A DNA stretch of 64,000 bases. Source: Flavobacterium sp. LMO8 (lineage in GTDB: Bacteria; Bacteroidota; Bacteroidia; Flavobacteriales; Flavobacteriaceae). The notes below the pieces were generated by a model that saw only the letters and a program-made list of their open reading frames with translations, had not been told where the DNA came from and did no database searches. A program made the translations under genes and the position numbers. Below are positions 346-64,000 of the stretch, piece after piece (within the stretch, counting starts at the first letter, position 1; the number at the start of each line of letters is the position of its first letter). The DNA is taken from the NCBI RefSeq assembly GCF_009495755.1, contig NZ_WIBJ01000031.1, positions 201,790 through 265,789 of the forward strand, written 5' to 3'.

Positions 346-1815
346 ATGTTAAAACACAGTTTACAATTCAAATTATCTCAAAAATTATCGCCTCAACAAA
401 TTCAGTTGATGAAGTTAATTCAATTGCCTACGCAAGCATTTGAGCAACGTCTTCAGGAAGAATTGGTTGAGAATCCTGCTTTGGAAGAAAGCAGCAAAGA
501 AGATAATTACGAAGCAGATGATTACGAAGTAAACACAAACGATGACGATTACGACGATTATGACAACGACCATATCGACGCACAAGATATCAACATCGAT
601 GAATATTTAAGTAACGACGAAACGCCCGATTACAAATATCAAACTAATAATTACAGCGATGACGATGATGACAAATCACTTCCGTTTGCTGCGCCTGTTA
701 GTTTTCATCAAGATTTAATCAATCAGTTAAATACATTTATTTTAAGTGATGACGAACGCGATATTGCCGAATTTTTAGTAGGAAGTATTGACGATATGGG
801 TTACATCAGAAGAACTACACAAGATATTGTAGACGACATGGCTTTTACCCAAGGTATTTATACCGATGAAGCTTCAGTTGAACGTATTTTGCATTTGGTA
901 CAAGAATTAGAACCTGCTGGAGTTGGAGCACGCGATTTACAAGAATGTTTGTTGTTGCAATTAAAACACAAAACACCGTCGGATTCTATCAATTTAGCCA
1001 TTCAAGTTATTGAACAGCAATTTGATGCATTTAGTAAAAAACATTACGATAAATTATTGCAAAAATTTGATGTTTCGCAACAACAATTAAGAAAAGCCAT
1101 TGACGAAATTGAAAAACTAAATCCGAAACCAGGAGGTAGTTTTGACGGCAATCAGAAAATGGTAGAACACATTGTTCCCGATTTTACGATTCGAATTGTT
1201 GATGGCGAATTAGAATTGCTATTAAACGGAAGAAATGCTCCAGAATTACACGTTTCTAAAGATTATCAAGAAATGTTGCAAAGTTACAAAGACACTTCTG
1301 AAAAATCGACTTCTCAGAAAGATGCGGTTCAATTTATCAAACAAAAATTAGATTCGGCAAAATGGTTTATTGATGCGATTAAACAGCGTCAGGAAACCTT
1401 ATATGTGACCATGAATGCGATTATGTTTTATCAGCAAGAATACTTTTTAGAAGGAGAAGAAACTAAACTTCGCCCGATGATTCTGAAAGATATTGCTGAT
1501 ATGGTTGGTTTAGACATTTCAACGGTTTCTCGTGTAGCAAATAGTAAATATGTTGATACTCCTTACGGAACGAAATTAATCAAAGAATTCTTTAGTGAAT
1601 CAATGACGAACGACCAAGGAGAAGAAGTTTCTACTATTGAAATTAAAAATATCTTACAACAAGTAATTTCGGAAGAAGATAAAAGAAAACCGCTACCAGA
1701 CGATCAATTAGCTGAAATTTTAAAAGAAAAAGGTTATCCAATTGCCCGAAGAACAATCGCGAAATATCGCGAACAATTAGATATTCCAGTAGCTCGTTTG
1801 AGAAAGAAAATCTAA
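346..1815 (+). CDS. rpoN: RNA polymerase sigma-54 factor RpoN
   Basis: This 489-residue protein is a full-length sigma-54. Residues 1-45 form the Gln- and Leu-rich region I that contacts AAA+ activators. Residues 50-110 are a strongly acidic region II (Asp/Glu/Asn runs). The core-binding domain follows, then a helix-turn-helix around residues 380-400. The RpoN box that reads the -24 promoter element lies at about 467-476 (ARRTIAKYRE). It directs core RNA polymerase to -24/-12 promoters. No obvious -24/-12 promoter or enhancer-binding activator was recognised in the window, so its targets lie elsewhere. A membrane protein gene follows after 10 bases and is probably cotranscribed. Confidence 0.97.
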   Translation: MLKHSLQFKLSQKLSPQQIQLMKLIQLPTQAFEQRLQEELVENPALEESSKEDNYEADDYEVNTNDDDYDDYDNDHIDAQDINIDEYLSNDETPDYKYQTNNYSDDDDDKSLPFAAPVSFHQDLINQLNTFILSDDERDIAEFLVGSIDDMGYIRRTTQDIVDDMAFTQGIYTDEASVERILHLVQELEPAGVGARDLQECLLLQLKHKTPSDSINLAIQVIEQQFDAFSKKHYDKLLQKFDVSQQQLRKAIDEIEKLNPKPGGSFDGNQKMVEHIVPDFTIRIVDGELELLLNGRNAPELHVSKDYQEMLQSYKDTSEKSTSQKDAVQFIKQKLDSAKWFIDAIKQRQETLYVTMNAIMFYQQEYFLEGEETKLRPMILKDIADMVGLDISTVSRVANSKYVDTPYGTKLIKEFFSESMTNDQGEEVSTIEIKNILQQVISEEDKRKPLPDDQLAEILKEKGYPIARRTIAKYREQLDIPVARLRKKI

Positions 1816-58773: not shown

Positions 58774-59754
58774 TTATATTACCATCAAATTACAACCACG
58801 AATATCAGAATTATCAAAACGTCCCAACACTTCGAAAGAATGGTTGGGATATTTTTTTCCCAAATCTTGCGTAGCAATAAACGAACACGAATTGATATTA
58901 GCTAAATCAATCACGTTAATTCCGCCTGTTTTTCCTTCGGAAACATAAGTTAAAGCATCTTCCGTATCACGAATAAGAATTTGCATCCATTGAGGACATT
59001 CAAAAACACCATCGCCAAGAGAATACGCTTGTGAAAGTAATTCGGTCATACCATATTCTGAATGAATTTTTGAAACACCAAATCCGTTGCATAGAAGCGA
59101 ATGTAATTCTTCGCGAATCATTTCTTTTCTTTTGCCTTTCATGCCGCCGGTTTCCATAATAATGGTATTTTTTAATTGGAATTTTTGCTTCTCAATTAAA
59201 TCCAACAAAGCATACGTAACTCCAATTAAAATCACATTCTGACCTGAATTATCTAACTCAATTACTTTAGAAATTAATTCATCGTAATTATGCAAATAAA
59301 ACCCAGAATCTGAATGATTGCTACTTTGGATTAAATCTTCCACCATGTAAATTAACGAAGAACCTTCGCGCTCTAAATAGGATGGAAGTAAGGCTAAAAC
59401 ACAATAATCTTCAATATTTCCATAAAATTCTGAAAAGCCTAAGCGATAACTTTCTTCGTACCAACTTACATCGGTAACTAAGTGTTTACTGGTTTGCATT
59501 CCGGTTGTGCCGCTACTGGTAAACGTTTGCTGAATAGCTTCAGGCGAACTTAAAACGTTATGACTTTTAAAAAATTGAATGGGTAAAAATGGAATTTCAG
59601 TTAATGATTTCACGTTGGTTTTGTCTTTCTTCAAGAAGTTGCAAAATTGTTGGTACACCAAATTGTTATCGTACTGATGACGAAATACTTTTAAAGTAAT
59701 TTTTTCAAATTCTTTTTTAGAACCAATTTGGAAAATGTCTTCTTGTGAAATCAT
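58774..59754 (-). CDS. LuxE-like acyl-activating enzyme
   Basis: A 326-residue protein of the LuxE/PaaK-like acyl-adenylating group. The nucleotide motif is TSSGTTGMQTSKH at 79-91. A later EYGMTELLSQAYS is a common motif of ANL ligases. It probably activates a fatty or aryl acid and may hand it to a carrier protein. No luxC, luxD or carrier protein lies next to it. Its -7 box abuts the ATG, suggesting a leaderless mRNA. Confidence 0.88.
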   Translation of the reverse strand: MISQEDIFQIGSKKEFEKITLKVFRHQYDNNLVYQQFCNFLKKDKTNVKSLTEIPFLPIQFFKSHNVLSSPEAIQQTFTSSGTTGMQTSKHLVTDVSWYEESYRLGFSEFYGNIEDYCVLALLPSYLEREGSSLIYMVEDLIQSSNHSDSGFYLHNYDELISKVIELDNSGQNVILIGVTYALLDLIEKQKFQLKNTIIMETGGMKGKRKEMIREELHSLLCNGFGVSKIHSEYGMTELLSQAYSLGDGVFECPQWMQILIRDTEDALTYVSEGKTGGINVIDLANINSCSFIATQDLGKKYPNHSFEVLGRFDNSDIRGCNLMVI

Positions 59755-59837: not shown

Positions 59838-61892
59838 TTATTGAATAACTAATTTTCTTGTAGCAGTTTTACCTTCTTCGGTAACTTTTACAATGTAAAC
59901 GCCAGCATTTAAACCAGAAACGTTTACAGAATTGTTGATTACATTAGAATTAATAACTTCTTTTCCTAGTAAGTCAAAAATTTGAACAGACATTTCAGCA
60001 TTAGCTGTAGAAGTCAAGTATAACGTATTTCCTTTTAATGGGTTTGGATACATAGTTAAACCGTCTATTGCATTGAAAGAGTTAGTTGTTAAATAGGTGC
60101 CTAATGGATAAGGAACAGTACATGCAGCATTAGTAGTAGCGCCTTCTAATTGGTTAATTCCACTAAATGTCCAGTTTCCAATTACAAATGAAGTTCCGTC
60201 AGGACCAGTATTTGAAACTCTGTAAGCCCAACCATCTAAATAATCCCAAGGTGTTCCTGTACCGTCTGCATTTACATCTCCAAAAGTATCGATAATTACA
60301 CCGTTTTCGTATAACTCAATAGCATCATCACCGTTAATACCAACTACTCCGGTTGTATAATTAGGTGCAAATCCAAAGAAGTTTGTAAATTCTGTTGCTT
60401 CAGAAGCTACAAAAATACTTTGTCCGGCGTTTAGAGTTCCTGCTGGAAAAGTAAATTCAATTGTAGATCCATTTGAACCAGCTCCATTTGTAACAGAACT
60501 AATTCCGTATAAAGATAAATCAGCTATATCAGCTAATGCGTATAATTCAACACCTTTTGGAGTTCCACCTGTATTTGGGCCATCATACGCACCAATAATA
60601 ACTAAAGAATTTGTAGGCGCACCGAAAACATTTCCAGTAATCGCTACCAATTGATTAGCAGCAGGTGAAGATGATACAGTAATATCGCCACTATAAGAAT
60701 TTATTGCTAATCCTGAGGCAAGTCTAATAAATACTTCTGTAGAAGCAACGGTTCCAGATGCTGGAGTAATAGAAACAGAAGGTCCGAATCCTGAACCAGA
60801 AGTTAAAGAAACTTCAAAGTTAGTTGGAGCAGTAATTGTAATATTTGAAGTTAAGAATAATCCTTCTACAAATATTGAATCTTCATTTGAAGGACCAGCG
60901 CCAAAAGTGTAATTCATTGCTGCAGGAGCTCCACCTGTAATTGTGAATTGAGGAGCAGCAGGTGAAACAACACCAGTTAAAGCTAATATTTGATTTGTTG
61001 CACCAGTTGAAGAAGCTGTAATATCTCCATTATATGTGTTAGCTGATAACCCAGCCATTAATCTTACATATACGGTAGTTGGATTTACAGTTCCACTTGT
61101 TTGAGTTAACATTACTGATGAAGCAAAACCTGAGCCAGAAGTTAAAGAAACTTCAAAGTTGGCTGGAGCAGCAACTGTAATATTTTGTGTTAAATTTATT
61201 CCTGATACTGAAAATGAATCTTCTGCAGAAGGGCCATTACCTTCAAAATAATCTAAACTATTAACTGTTCCTGAAACAGAAATTGTAGGAGTTGAAGAAG
61301 CAGTAGTTGAATATGTTCCAAATGGAACTAAAGTGCTTAGTGCAGTTGCGGTATTACATAATCCTTCATTGTCTAATAGATTTTGTGCCCCAAAAGTAAA
61401 GTCAACAACATTAAAAGCGCCTCCATTTGCTGGTACACCAGCAACTCTATAATAATAGGTGTCAACATGTTCCCATGCTGTTCCAGTTCCGTCTACCGTA
61501 GCATCGCCAAAACGATCTATAACAGCTGTAGTTGCATCAATAATTTGAAAAGCATCATCGCCATTGTCATTAATTGCTGCTGAAAGAATTACATTCGCTC
61601 CTGAAATTCCAAACTCAGCGCTTAAAGTAGCTACATCATTAGTAATGTAAGCAAATGAATTTGTTAATGAACCAAGAGTTGTTAAATCAATATTAGTAAT
61701 AAAACCACCGCCGTTTGATTGTCTTACTAAATTCCATCCAGTTAAATCGACAGTTCCATCAACATATATTTCGACAGTTCTTCCTAGTTGTGTTGGGCAA
61801 GGAGAGTCGAAATATCCGGTAATGATAACTTCTTGTGCATTTGCAAAAGTAAATGCAAAAAGCATTGAAAATAAAAAGTAAATTTTTTTCAT
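59838..61892 (-). CDS. Large T9SS substrate with two lamin-tail-like halves
   Basis: A 684-residue secreted protein. Signal peptide 1-20 (FANAQ). Residues 21-194 and 428-600 each look like a lamin-tail-type beta-sandwich (VIITGYFDS and VIIGAYDGPN; NDNGDDAFQIID and GINGDDAIELYE; FGDATVDGTGTAWEH and FGDVNADGTGTPWDY). Between them are two about 105-residue Ig-like repeats (203-307, 314-421) sharing NFEVSLTSGSGF. Residues 610-684 are the T9SS type A sorting domain (MYPNPLKGN...GVYIVKVTEEGKTATRKLVIQ). It is exported to the surface by T9SS. Confidence 0.92.
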   Translation of the reverse strand: MKKIYFLFSMLFAFTFANAQEVIITGYFDSPCPTQLGRTVEIYVDGTVDLTGWNLVRQSNGGGFITNIDLTTLGSLTNSFAYITNDVATLSAEFGISGANVILSAAINDNGDDAFQIIDATTAVIDRFGDATVDGTGTAWEHVDTYYYRVAGVPANGGAFNVVDFTFGAQNLLDNEGLCNTATALSTLVPFGTYSTTASSTPTISVSGTVNSLDYFEGNGPSAEDSFSVSGINLTQNITVAAPANFEVSLTSGSGFASSVMLTQTSGTVNPTTVYVRLMAGLSANTYNGDITASSTGATNQILALTGVVSPAAPQFTITGGAPAAMNYTFGAGPSNEDSIFVEGLFLTSNITITAPTNFEVSLTSGSGFGPSVSITPASGTVASTEVFIRLASGLAINSYSGDITVSSSPAANQLVAITGNVFGAPTNSLVIIGAYDGPNTGGTPKGVELYALADIADLSLYGISSVTNGAGSNGSTIEFTFPAGTLNAGQSIFVASEATEFTNFFGFAPNYTTGVVGINGDDAIELYENGVIIDTFGDVNADGTGTPWDYLDGWAYRVSNTGPDGTSFVIGNWTFSGINQLEGATTNAACTVPYPLGTYLTTNSFNAIDGLTMYPNPLKGNTLYLTSTANAEMSVQIFDLLGKEVINSNVINNSVNVSGLNAGVYIVKVTEEGKTATRKLVIQ

Positions 61893-61915
61893 GTTTAAAA
61901 ATTATAAATTGAGAA

Positions 61916-61923
61916 CAAAGTTA
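61916..61923 (-). promoter_or_regulatory. -7 box of the large T9SS gene
   Basis: TAACTTTG on the minus strand, 24 bases from the ATG. Confidence 0.55.
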
Positions 61924-62018
61924 ATGAGAATTAATTTTATTTAAGAAATTAAGATGTTAACTTATAATTAAATTTGTAAAGAGTTGATATTTATGATTTT
62001 ATATTTTTTTAAAACTAA

Positions 62019-62042
62019 AAAGGCATCTATTAAGATGCCTTT
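62019..62042 (-). terminator. Terminator of the second T9SS gene
   Basis: Perfect arms AAAGGCATCT (62019-62028) and AGATGCCTTT (62033-62042) with a 4-base loop; T-run on the minus strand. Confidence 0.85.
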
Positions 62043-62063
62043 AAAATTGTATTGCTATATTAA

Positions 62064-62981
62064 TTATTCTATAACTAATTTTCTTGTAGCAGTTTTACCA
62101 TCTTCAGTAATTTTAACGATATAAACACCAGTAGTTAAGCTAGAAACATTTACAGTATTGTTTGTTACTTCTGAGTTTAATACATTTTTACCTAATACAT
62201 CAAAAATTTGAACCGACATTTCGTTATTAGCAGTTGAAGTTAAAAGTAAAGTGTTTCCTTTTAATGGATTTGGATACATTTTTAATCCTTCGATATTATT
62301 AAATGAAGAAGAACTTAAAACATCTACATTTCCAGAAAAAGCAACATTATCAATGCTAAAAGTTCCACCAGAACCTTCTGCGTTGAAACCATAAAAACGG
62401 AAAGTTACATTGCTTGTAAGGTTTTCAAATGCAGTTCCTAAAGTTATAGTCATTCCTGGTAAGTTACTTGTTGTTGCGTCTAAGATAACAAAAAAGATAT
62501 CGTTTGGTTGAACCGAAACTAATGTGCTTGCTCCTACAGATGCAGGTAAGTTGGTTGTAAAACCATCTAAACTTGAACGTACAGCAAAATTTCGCACACC
62601 TGTTCCAGATCTTCTTCCTACAAAGGTTATTGATGATAAATCGATTTGACCACCAGAATTTGGACCAACAGTAACTTCAAAAAAAACACCTGTGTCGACA
62701 AAACCAGAAAAGTTTGAATAATTGTCGTCTCCATTAATCCCACCTTCGGGTTGATTAATAAATGAAAATCGTCCACTAGCCGTGGAGTTTGTAGGAGGTG
62801 CAACTAAGTTAGTAGCTACAAAAGAGCTAAAATAAACGCCAGCAGCAACAGGTACTGGTGTAGGGTCTGTAGCTCCAGAAGCATTAGTTACTGATGCAAA
62901 ATCGTAAGTTGCTGTAAAAGGGCCCTGAGCAAAGCCAACACTTGCTATAATTACAGATAATAAAGTGTAAAGTTTTTTCAT
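62064..62981 (-). CDS. T9SS-exported beta-sandwich protein
   Basis: A 305-residue secreted protein. Signal peptide 1-19 (SVGFAQ). Residues 20-225 are a beta-sandwich with many Gly/Ser/Asn (FGFNAEGSGGTFSIDNVAFSG), similar to secreted PEP-CTERM-like or adhesive domains. The last 75 residues are a type A sorting domain nearly identical to that of the neighbouring large protein (MYPNPLKGNTLLLTSTAN). I start at 62981, since the longer frame begins inside the -7 box at 63006-63013. Confidence 0.9.
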   Translation of the reverse strand: MKKLYTLLSVIIASVGFAQGPFTATYDFASVTNASGATDPTPVPVAAGVYFSSFVATNLVAPPTNSTASGRFSFINQPEGGINGDDNYSNFSGFVDTGVFFEVTVGPNSGGQIDLSSITFVGRRSGTGVRNFAVRSSLDGFTTNLPASVGASTLVSVQPNDIFFVILDATTSNLPGMTITLGTAFENLTSNVTFRFYGFNAEGSGGTFSIDNVAFSGNVDVLSSSSFNNIEGLKMYPNPLKGNTLLLTSTANNEMSVQIFDVLGKNVLNSEVTNNTVNVSSLTTGVYIVKITEDGKTATRKLVIE

Positions 62982-63072: not shown

Positions 63073-63414
63073 TTAATTAATAATTAATTTTCTAGTGGCA
63101 GTTGCATCACCTTCTTTTATCTTGATGATATAAACACCAGCTGAAAGATTACTTACATTTACTTCTTTTGAAGTAATAACCGTCTCTAGTACTTTTTTTC
63201 CAAGTACATTAAAAATTTCTACCTTTTTGTCTAAAGACGATTTGGTAGTAATGTAAATTTTTCCAGAGTTTACGGGATTTGGGTAAATGGCTAAGCCCTC
63301 AATTGTAGGTTCTTGAGTTTTAGTCGCAATAGCAGATTTGTTCTCTTGTGCCTGAAGGCTGAAAGAAAACAAAACCGTTAAAAGAAAAATAGTATAAAAG
63401 TATTTTTTTTTCAT
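63073..63414 (-). CDS. T9SS sorting-domain protein without cargo
   Basis: A 113-residue protein: signal peptide 1-23 (SLQAQE), about 18 residues of linker, then directly the type A sorting domain (IYPNPVNSGKIYITTKSS...AGVYIIKIKEGDATATRKLIIN). There is no room for a cargo domain. It could be a truncated cargo protein, a competitor or chaperone-like substrate of T9SS, or a small surface protein. It lies between two other secreted protein genes on the same strand. Confidence 0.85.
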   Translation of the reverse strand: MKKKYFYTIFLLTVLFSFSLQAQENKSAIATKTQEPTIEGLAIYPNPVNSGKIYITTKSSLDKKVEIFNVLGKKVLETVITSKEVNVSNLSAGVYIIKIKEGDATATRKLIIN

Positions 63415-63475
63415 GCGAAACTAATATTGAGTGTAAAGATAACCATTTTTTAATTACAAATACAATGCCAAATAA

Positions 63476-63500
63476 AAAATCCCTCTTCGTGAGGGATTTT
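63476..63500 (-). terminator. Terminator of the partial secreted gene
   Basis: Arms AAAATCCCTC (63476-63485) and GAGGGATTTT (63491-63500), 5-base loop, T-run on the minus strand. Confidence 0.85.
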
Positions 63501-63521: not shown

Positions 63522-64000
63522 TTAGAAACCAGTTGTCCATCCTGTTGCCCAGTTTGGAGTATCTCCGCTATTTCCAGCTCCAGTATTTGTTCCTGTAGTC
63601 ATATAACTTGTGTTTGTTCCAGCATATTCAGAATTAGTAGTGATTGATGCTCCAAAATAGATAGGATTAAAAGTAACATTTCCATTATCTACATTTGTAT
63701 TTGCATTAGGGTCTTCTGTAGTGTTTTTAATTTTTAAACCTTTAGTAAATCCATCAATATAAATGTTTTGGCAATCCCACATACCAGCACCTTCTTTTAA
63801 GTAAATTCCATGTTCTGATCCAGCTAAACTTCCTTTTACAATTGTAAAGTTTTTTAAAGTTGCATTAGTAGTAGGAGTTGCTGCTCCATTATCTCCATTG
63901 TTAGAACCTTCAACACCAGCTTTAGCTACATCTTTGATGAAAACATTTTCAAGAGTTCCTGAATATCCATCTGCGAAATCTACTGCATCATCTTCACTGT
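63522..64000 (-). CDS. Partial secreted right-handed-helix-like protein (N-terminus beyond window)
   Basis: The minus-strand frame stays open to the last base, giving about 159 C-terminal residues: ...DDAVDFADGYSGTLENVFIKDVAKAGVEG... then LKNFTIVKGSLAGSEHGIYLKEGAGMWDCQNIYIDGF. Repeating short strands with Asp/Asn turns resemble a right-handed parallel beta-helix (pectate-lyase-like). The end TPNWATGWTTGF resembles a terminal tail found in flavobacterial secreted proteins, and there is no type A sorting domain. Function not known. Confidence 0.7.
   Translation of the reverse strand, partial: SEDDAVDFADGYSGTLENVFIKDVAKAGVEGSNNGDNGAATPTTNATLKNFTIVKGSLAGSEHGIYLKEGAGMWDCQNIYIDGFTKGLKIKNTTEDPNANTNVDNGNVTFNPIYFGASITTNSEYAGTNTSYMTTGTNTGAGNSGDTPNWATGWTTGF

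Follow-up and report, generated by a model that had tools for sequence, protein, structure and literature searches.

The stretch of DNA analyzed in this study (hereafter the window) comprises 64,000 nucleotides of Flavobacterium sp. LMO8 (contig NZ_WIBJ01000031.1, positions 201,790 to 265,789). Close to its end is a gene for a 113-residue protein that consists of a putative signal peptide, a short linker and a type A C-terminal domain (CTD) of the type IX secretion system (T9SS), with no cargo domain. It is referred to below as the tag-only gene and its product as the tag-only protein. The gene and its parts are as follows.

63073..63414, minus strand: cargo-less CTD protein of 113 amino acid residues (ATG-to-stop open reading frame; TIGR04183 and PF18962; homologues in genus and family)
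63349..63414, minus strand: putative signal peptide, residues 1-22, with cleavage expected before Gln-23 (inspection; conservation of Gln-23)
63292..63348, minus strand: linker, residues 23-41, whose entropy exceeds that of the other two parts (entropy of residues 23-37; dN of residues 23-41)
63076..63291, minus strand: type A T9SS CTD, residues 42-113, under stronger constraint than the other two parts (TIGR04183, PF18962, dN and entropy; predicted seven-strand fold)

Architecture and predicted fold of the tag-only protein

A previous sequence-only reading of the gene held that a signal peptide, a short linker and a sorting domain fill the 113 residues. The open reading frame (ORF), the matches to TIGR04183 and PF18962 and the predicted fold bear this out, and the strand, which that reading did not state, is minus. 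The signal peptide was called by inspection: the N-terminus is hydrophobic and ends with SLQA before Gln-23, and the structure model places a helix at residues 4-26. Gln-23 was found in 23/23 rows of a genus-level alignment (A2) and had zero entropy among the aligned ortholog rows, which are mostly of one genus, and its column was not among the listed invariant columns of a cross-genus alignment of 22 homologues (A1). A Gln exposed after signal-peptide cleavage has been described for Bacteroidetes (PMC5837995). TIGR04183, the T9SS type A sorting domain, matched residues 43-113 over positions 1-72 of the 72-position model (E 5.9e-17; 61.4 bits against a cut-off of 23). PF18962 matched with an E of 1.5e-16 (60.9 bits against a cut-off of 27) and was also matched by 22/22 homologues of A1. 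The signal peptide and the CTD are separated by about 19 residues, which are variable and leave no space for a cargo domain; thus, the protein lacks the cargo domain of a T9SS type A CTD protein. The genome of Flavobacterium sp. LMO8 had 48 listed type A CTD matches, and among the 44 above the cut-off the tag-only gene was the sole complete cargo-less one. A second short CTD frame of this genome was truncated by the start of its contig.

The structure model of the tag-only protein, whose mean predicted local distance difference test score (pLDDT) was 83.6, contained one helix and seven strands. Its best match in the PDB was 8glk_D, the CTD of NucA trapped in the SprA-PorV translocon (E 6.2e-5, target TM 0.82); by these values the model has the CTD fold of a T9SS type A CTD protein. 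The second-best match was 4g5a, a DUF3244 protein with a chain of 99 residues (E 2.3e-4). The DUF3244 proteins of Bacteroides are similar to the tag-only protein in their small chain and their fold; however, the identity was 16% and no DUF3244 sequence match was found at the threshold of the domain search. DUF6383 matched the tag-only CTD above its cut-off and, at an E of 0.001, was matched by 8 of the 22 homologues. Together with the DUF3244 structure, this match hints that CTD-like domains may form a wider family.

Three residues of the CTD stood out. K109 was invariant in the 22 homologues of A1 as well as in 79 orthologues and the protein of the window. A near-C-terminal Lys contacts PorV in translocon structures (Lauber 2024, PMC10994853), and from the distance to the C-terminus, using the length of RemZ, we infer that K109 is its counterpart. 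K63 was also invariant and E84 nearly so in A1. Different from K109, K63 and E84 were not conserved in the neighboring CTDs or in other CTDs, and this family-specific conservation suggests a dedicated contact.

Conservation, selection and phylogeny

Short homologues recur in the genus and the family, which answers the search for similar short proteins proposed in the sequence-only reading. Within the genus, 60 of 61 genomes, including that of strain LMO8, had a match at 1e-12, and a short frame of 105-171 amino acid residues from stop to stop was the best match in 59/61. Among 299 genomes of the family, 127 matched in a single-sequence search at 1e-18 and 182 in a profile search at 1e-22. The best E was 8e-28 or lower in 134 of them, of which 131 had frames of 102-182 residues; at least 131 of the 299 genomes therefore hold a short homologue. 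The short-frame counts for genus and family are hand counts of the search listings. In a sample of the order, 73/296 genomes matched, and the 24 of these that lie outside the family all matched in longer frames. The family and order searches scored no more than 15 candidates in each genome, so their absences are soft.

The homologue of one relative (G012) encodes an identical protein, with 13 synonymous and 0 non-synonymous changes in the coding sequence, whereas the adjoining lipoprotein was 89% and the neighboring 305-residue protein about 63% identical between the two genomes. Over 79 orthologues and the protein of the window (80 named loci less one truncated locus; gaps uncounted), the mean entropy was 0.82 bits for the CTD, 1.46 bits for the signal peptide and 1.87 bits for the linker. 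The ratio of non-synonymous (dN) to synonymous (dS) substitution rates of the CTD was about 0.03-0.04 in six close pairs (L103-L108). With G012 excluded, dN was higher for the signal peptide than for the CTD in 14/14 pairs and higher for the linker than for the CTD in 11/14. Moreover, the length and the sequence of the linker varied across genera in A1. Judged from these comparisons, the linker is under weaker constraint than the CTD, yet not free of it. Some of the named records (e.g., L149, L162, and L174) are titled as unrelated organisms, probably as mislabeled metagenome bins, and were retained in the counts.

A tree was built from 87 CTDs: 30 tag-only CTDs (29 named loci and that of the window, nearly all from Flavobacterium), 40 neighboring CTDs and 17 other CTDs of the LMO8 genome. 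The loci of other genera were left out, and the alignment was short, with few columns and several long branches, so details of the tree are unsure. The 30 tag-only CTDs formed a single clade (support 100/99), which grouped with 39 of the 40 neighboring CTDs (97/94) apart from the 17 others. Within the limits of the few columns and long branches, no exchange of CTDs between tag-only genes and their neighbors was seen in the tree. Taken as sequence evidence, these results make it almost certain that the tag-only gene is real and conserved and encodes an exported protein, and it looks like a working part, not a broken gene.

Genomic neighborhood and upstream region

The other features of the window discussed here are as follows.

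62064..62981, minus strand: secreted protein of 305 residues whose CTD belongs to the same locus-specific lineage (CTD profile, tree)
59838..61892, minus strand: secreted protein of 684 residues that has a lamin-tail domain and whose CTD also belongs to that lineage (domain profiles, tree)
58774-59754, minus strand: LuxE-like acyl-protein synthetase gene (PF04443 above cut-off)
63522..63998, minus strand: 3' part of the upstream lipoprotein gene, which runs off the window; presumed counterpart of Fjoh_0546/FII (ORF; neighborhood beyond the window)
63434..63441, minus strand: sigma-A -7 box-like TATCTTTA (read from the sequence; TAnnTTTR in orthologues)
63457..63471, minus strand: sigma-54-like -24/-12 element TTGGCATTGTATTTG (read from the sequence; TTGG-N6-8-TTTG in relatives)
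63476..63500, minus strand: intrinsic terminator that separates the tag-only gene from the lipoprotein gene upstream (hairpin)
346-1815, plus strand: rpoN (sigma-54) gene, in the same window as the tag-only gene

Upstream of the tag-only gene, a terminator was found in 44 of 51 named loci with a lipoprotein gene directly upstream (0.05 in shuffled sequences) and in 5/28 other loci. Of the 79 named orthologues, 78 had TAnnTTTR between -17 and -32 relative to the ATG, compared with a mean of 5.6 in shuffles. Among 95 upstream regions of relatives, 73 had TTGG and TTTG at a spacing of 11, compared with a mean of 0.3 in shuffles, and the pair takes the form of a sigma-54 -24/-12 element, TGGYAY-N5-TTG. 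A sigma-54-like element preceded 58/79 tag-only genes but only 4/411 other gene starts in the same loci. In other genera, a looser sigma-54-like pattern was found at 34/45 tag-only genes, and at 34/36 when first or single genes are counted. The alternative that TTGG...TTTG is a sigma-A -33 box is less likely, given that its internal spacing is fixed (11) and its distance to TAnnTTT varies. The genome of strain LMO8 has rpoN, and its dnaK is preceded by TGGCAC-N5-TTG; TTGGCAC-N5-CTG upstream of groES, with CTG for TTG, was noticed by eye and missed by the pattern search. In F. psychrophilum, sigma-54 promoters have been predicted at GroESL, DnaK, Lon, HtpG, Skp and the gliding operon; the one at the gliding operon was tested by mutation (PMC9723704). 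In most named loci, the tag-only gene is thus set apart by a predicted terminator and a putative promoter of its own.

Two tag-only genes stood in tandem in 9 of the 36 loci of other genera (L239-L247). In these loci, the sigma-54-like pattern was found at the first gene in 8/9 and at the second gene in 0/9.

Similar to the earlier description, which placed the gene next to other secreted-protein genes, two genes for CTD proteins follow downstream, and genes for a lipoprotein-type protein and a TonB-dependent receptor lie upstream, mostly beyond the window. The two neighboring secreted proteins (59838-62981, minus strand) have a locus-specific CTD lineage in common; their sizes differ between species and their domains differ in part. 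Several species have the tag-only gene without a CTD neighbor. Just past the window (L051, 4311-10296) are the rest of the lipoprotein gene, the TonB receptor gene and a phoBR-like pair, presumably the counterpart of Fjoh_0543-0546 of F. johnsoniae. The regulator pair is called phoBR-like after the F. johnsoniae locus, as PhoB and PhoR-type families were among its best matches, below curated cut-offs.

For comparison with other genera, 36 genomes were chosen for holding the tag-only gene. The phoB-like gene directly adjoined it in 25/36. In the remaining 11, TonB-receptor or lipoprotein-type genes were upstream, with an ORF of no assigned family between in two; in several of these 11 loci the phoB-like gene was outside the stretch read. 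The LuxE-like gene was downstream in 35/36, directly or after other CTD genes, and in L243 after an unassigned ORF on the opposite strand. In several loci it stays downstream of the tag-only gene even where the upstream side is rearranged. Among the 80 named loci, with contig ends and multi-gene inserts scored as misses, the LuxE-like gene was at most 4 genes downstream in 70, phoBR-like, TonB-receptor or lipoprotein-type genes at most 3 genes upstream in 69 and both in 64, and neither kind of neighbor was found in five (L131, L132, L135, L149, and L150). However, the order of trmB, LysE, TyrS and other genes is likewise conserved in many of these genomes. Given that housekeeping genes also keep their order, the conserved place reflects vertical descent more than function, and linkage to the phoBR-like and LuxE-like genes is weakened as functional evidence. 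In L082-L101, where the phoB-like gene is directly divergent, a recurring TTAATAACATTAAGGTAACA-like (TAAC-type) repeat, by eye similar to a Pho box, was found between the phoB-like and the tag-only genes.

Possible function of the tag-only protein

Fjoh_0547 of F. johnsoniae, a CTD-containing protein of 112 residues (PMC7712824), is the presumed orthologue of the tag-only protein by gene order, length and type. In that species, phoR, phoB and the genes for a TonB receptor and the lipoprotein FII are Fjoh_0543 to 0546 (PMC8115612); the number of Fjoh_0547 thus follows those of the TonB receptor (Fjoh_0545) and FII (Fjoh_0546), in the same order as at the locus studied here. Fjoh_0547 was reported in culture supernatants, including those of sprA and porV mutants (Lauber 2018, as cited in PMC7712824). 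A search of full texts for this locus tag found one paper that mentions the gene, in passages that assign no function to it. Similar to the type A substrates RemZ, NucA and RemA, the tag-only protein has a type A CTD with its fold and a near-C-terminal Lys. Different from them, it has no cargo, and its presumed orthologue reportedly occurs outside cells of sprA and porV mutants. PorA (PGN_0123) of P. gingivalis is also a small CTD protein; it appears on the surface independently of the translocation machinery and acts in signaling, influencing the PorXY-SigP two-component pathway (PMC7712824). By analogy, PorA may serve as a precedent for a small CTD protein that reaches the surface without that machinery and influences such a pathway. 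The likeness is one of description, and PorA differs in having 246 residues, a FimH-like domain and a tie to PorXY-SigP. No FimH-like immunoglobulin (Ig) domain was found in the tag-only protein, whose 113 residues are too few for one and which matched CTD-type families only. The CTD itself is a known domain, and one member of the group, Fjoh_0547, had been noticed. No description of tag-only proteins as a conserved family was found in open-licence full texts.

The CTD varies least and is more constrained than the linker, which argues that the tag itself is probably the functional part of the protein; this is held less firmly than the reality of the gene, as the linker is not free of constraint. 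On this basis, we tentatively favor a role in trans of the free CTD on the T9SS, most likely as a regulatory ligand, i.e., a decoy or reporter. Also counted in favor of this role are the fold match to the NucA CTD bound in SprA-PorV, the conserved K63, E84 and K109, the sigma-54-like element together with the predicted sigma-54 promoters of F. psychrophilum, the PorA precedent and the report of Fjoh_0547 in supernatants. The tag-only protein would be exported by Sec to the periplasm and outside, perhaps without SprA. The free CTD would then act on T9SS components that bind CTDs, namely PorV, SprA and the sortase complex, and as a regulatory ligand would titrate or report CTD traffic, perhaps as part of an envelope quality-control program. 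The most specific form, in which a soluble CTD made under a sigma-54 envelope-stress program binds the CTD-handling machinery and brakes or reports T9SS traffic, is speculative and unlikely to hold in full. The sequence-only reading had named occupation of the T9SS or its attachment machinery, a decoy and a minimal surface anchor as roles. Its layout of a putative signal peptide, a linker and a CTD without cargo stands. Occupation or a decoy role may hold, given a conserved CTD whose predicted fold resembles that of CTDs bound in the translocon and which retains the near-C-terminal Lys, whereas the anchor is disfavored and the remnant that it gave as its refutation is contradicted.

Several results weigh against a regulatory role in trans. 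Given that Fjoh_0547 is reportedly found outside cells that lack SprA or PorV, the protein may not engage the T9SS at all, and its tie to T9SS control is one that we infer. A near-C-terminal Lys is general among CTDs, being kept by 82% of the other CTDs sampled, and its main role is suggested to lie elsewhere than in PorV binding (Lauber 2024, PMC10994853). SprA was present in 294/299 family genomes, and co-occurrence with it is therefore no test. Because no match was found in 117/299 family genomes at a profile E of 1e-22, the gene would be dispensable or diverged in many of them. In 3/14 pairs (L105, L115, and L154) dN of the linker was not above that of the CTD. Finally, the element in its TTGG-N6-8-TTTG form was missing from 22/95 upstream regions, and the strict form TGGCA-N6-TTGC precedes only 8/79 tag-only genes. 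In 6/9 tandem loci the element was 21-28 bp from the ATG, and in 3/4 of those read closely it was downstream of the sigma-A box, a placement that fits a sigma-54 promoter poorly; in these loci it may be an operator.

The closest rival is that the CTD fold was recruited as a stand-alone, extracellular Ig-like protein, released as a matrix, vesicle or binding domain by an exit other than the T9SS. The presence of Fjoh_0547 in sprA and porV mutant supernatants (PMC7712824), the second-place fold match to 4g5a, the DUF6383 matches and the family-specific conserved residues are all consistent with such a protein. We regard it as less likely than not, and slightly less likely than the role in trans, given that the protein has retained its type A motifs as well as the near-C-terminal Lys, which a domain freed from T9SS recognition would not need, and that the nearest fold match is the CTD of a T9SS substrate. 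A part in the outer-membrane system for phosphate starvation at the phoBR locus, together with the TonB receptor and FII, is distinctly unlikely. Fjoh_0545 and Fjoh_0546 are strongly induced by phosphate (Pi) starvation in F. johnsoniae (PMC8115612), the genes adjoin in the LMO8 genome and in many named loci, and the TAAC-type repeat lies between the phoB-like and tag-only genes in other genera. However, the main text of the Pi study (PMC8115612) makes no mention of Fjoh_0547, and the adjacency may be mere inheritance of a neighborhood conserved with its housekeeping genes. Membership in the upstream Pho operon in particular is disfavored by the terminator that parts the two genes in 44/51 loci, by the putative promoter and by the 25/36 genomes of other genera in which no TonB receptor or lipoprotein gene stands between the phoB-like and the tag-only genes.

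The tag-only gene might instead be a reservoir of CTD sequence from which new secreted proteins arise nearby by duplication, with any present function secondary. The grouping of the 30 tag-only with 39/40 neighboring CTDs apart from the 17 others, and the varying length of the neighbors, would agree with this. It is improbable, as the tag-only CTDs form a clade of their own and are not mixed with neighbors of the same genome, as some species have no such neighbor, and as evolutionary usefulness leaves the strong selection unexplained. Attachment of the linker peptide to the cell surface by the sortase, i.e., a minimal anchor, would accord with the constraint on the linker in 3/14 pairs. It is very improbable, since only the linker would remain on the cell after sortase cleavage, and the linker has the highest entropy and differs in length and sequence across genera; the tag as the working part argues against it as well. 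For a degraded remnant of a larger secreted protein, which the small size alone would suggest, the probability is negligible. Short frames are the best match in 59/61 genomes of the genus and occur in at least 131/299 of the family, the 30 sampled form one clade, purifying selection is evident (against G012, 13 changes are synonymous and none is non-synonymous), and Fjoh_0547 is reported in supernatants (PMC7712824).

In the usual view, CTDs are address labels that are read and then removed. A widespread gene that consists of the label only, and in which the label is the most constrained part, would mean that a CTD can be an effector. If the regulatory role of the free CTD holds, a single small gene of a species that is easily handled in the laboratory would provide a simple genetic handle on T9SS regulation, and the same handle may help to explain why one CTD protein reportedly bypasses SprA and whether secretion is connected with envelope quality control through sigma-54.
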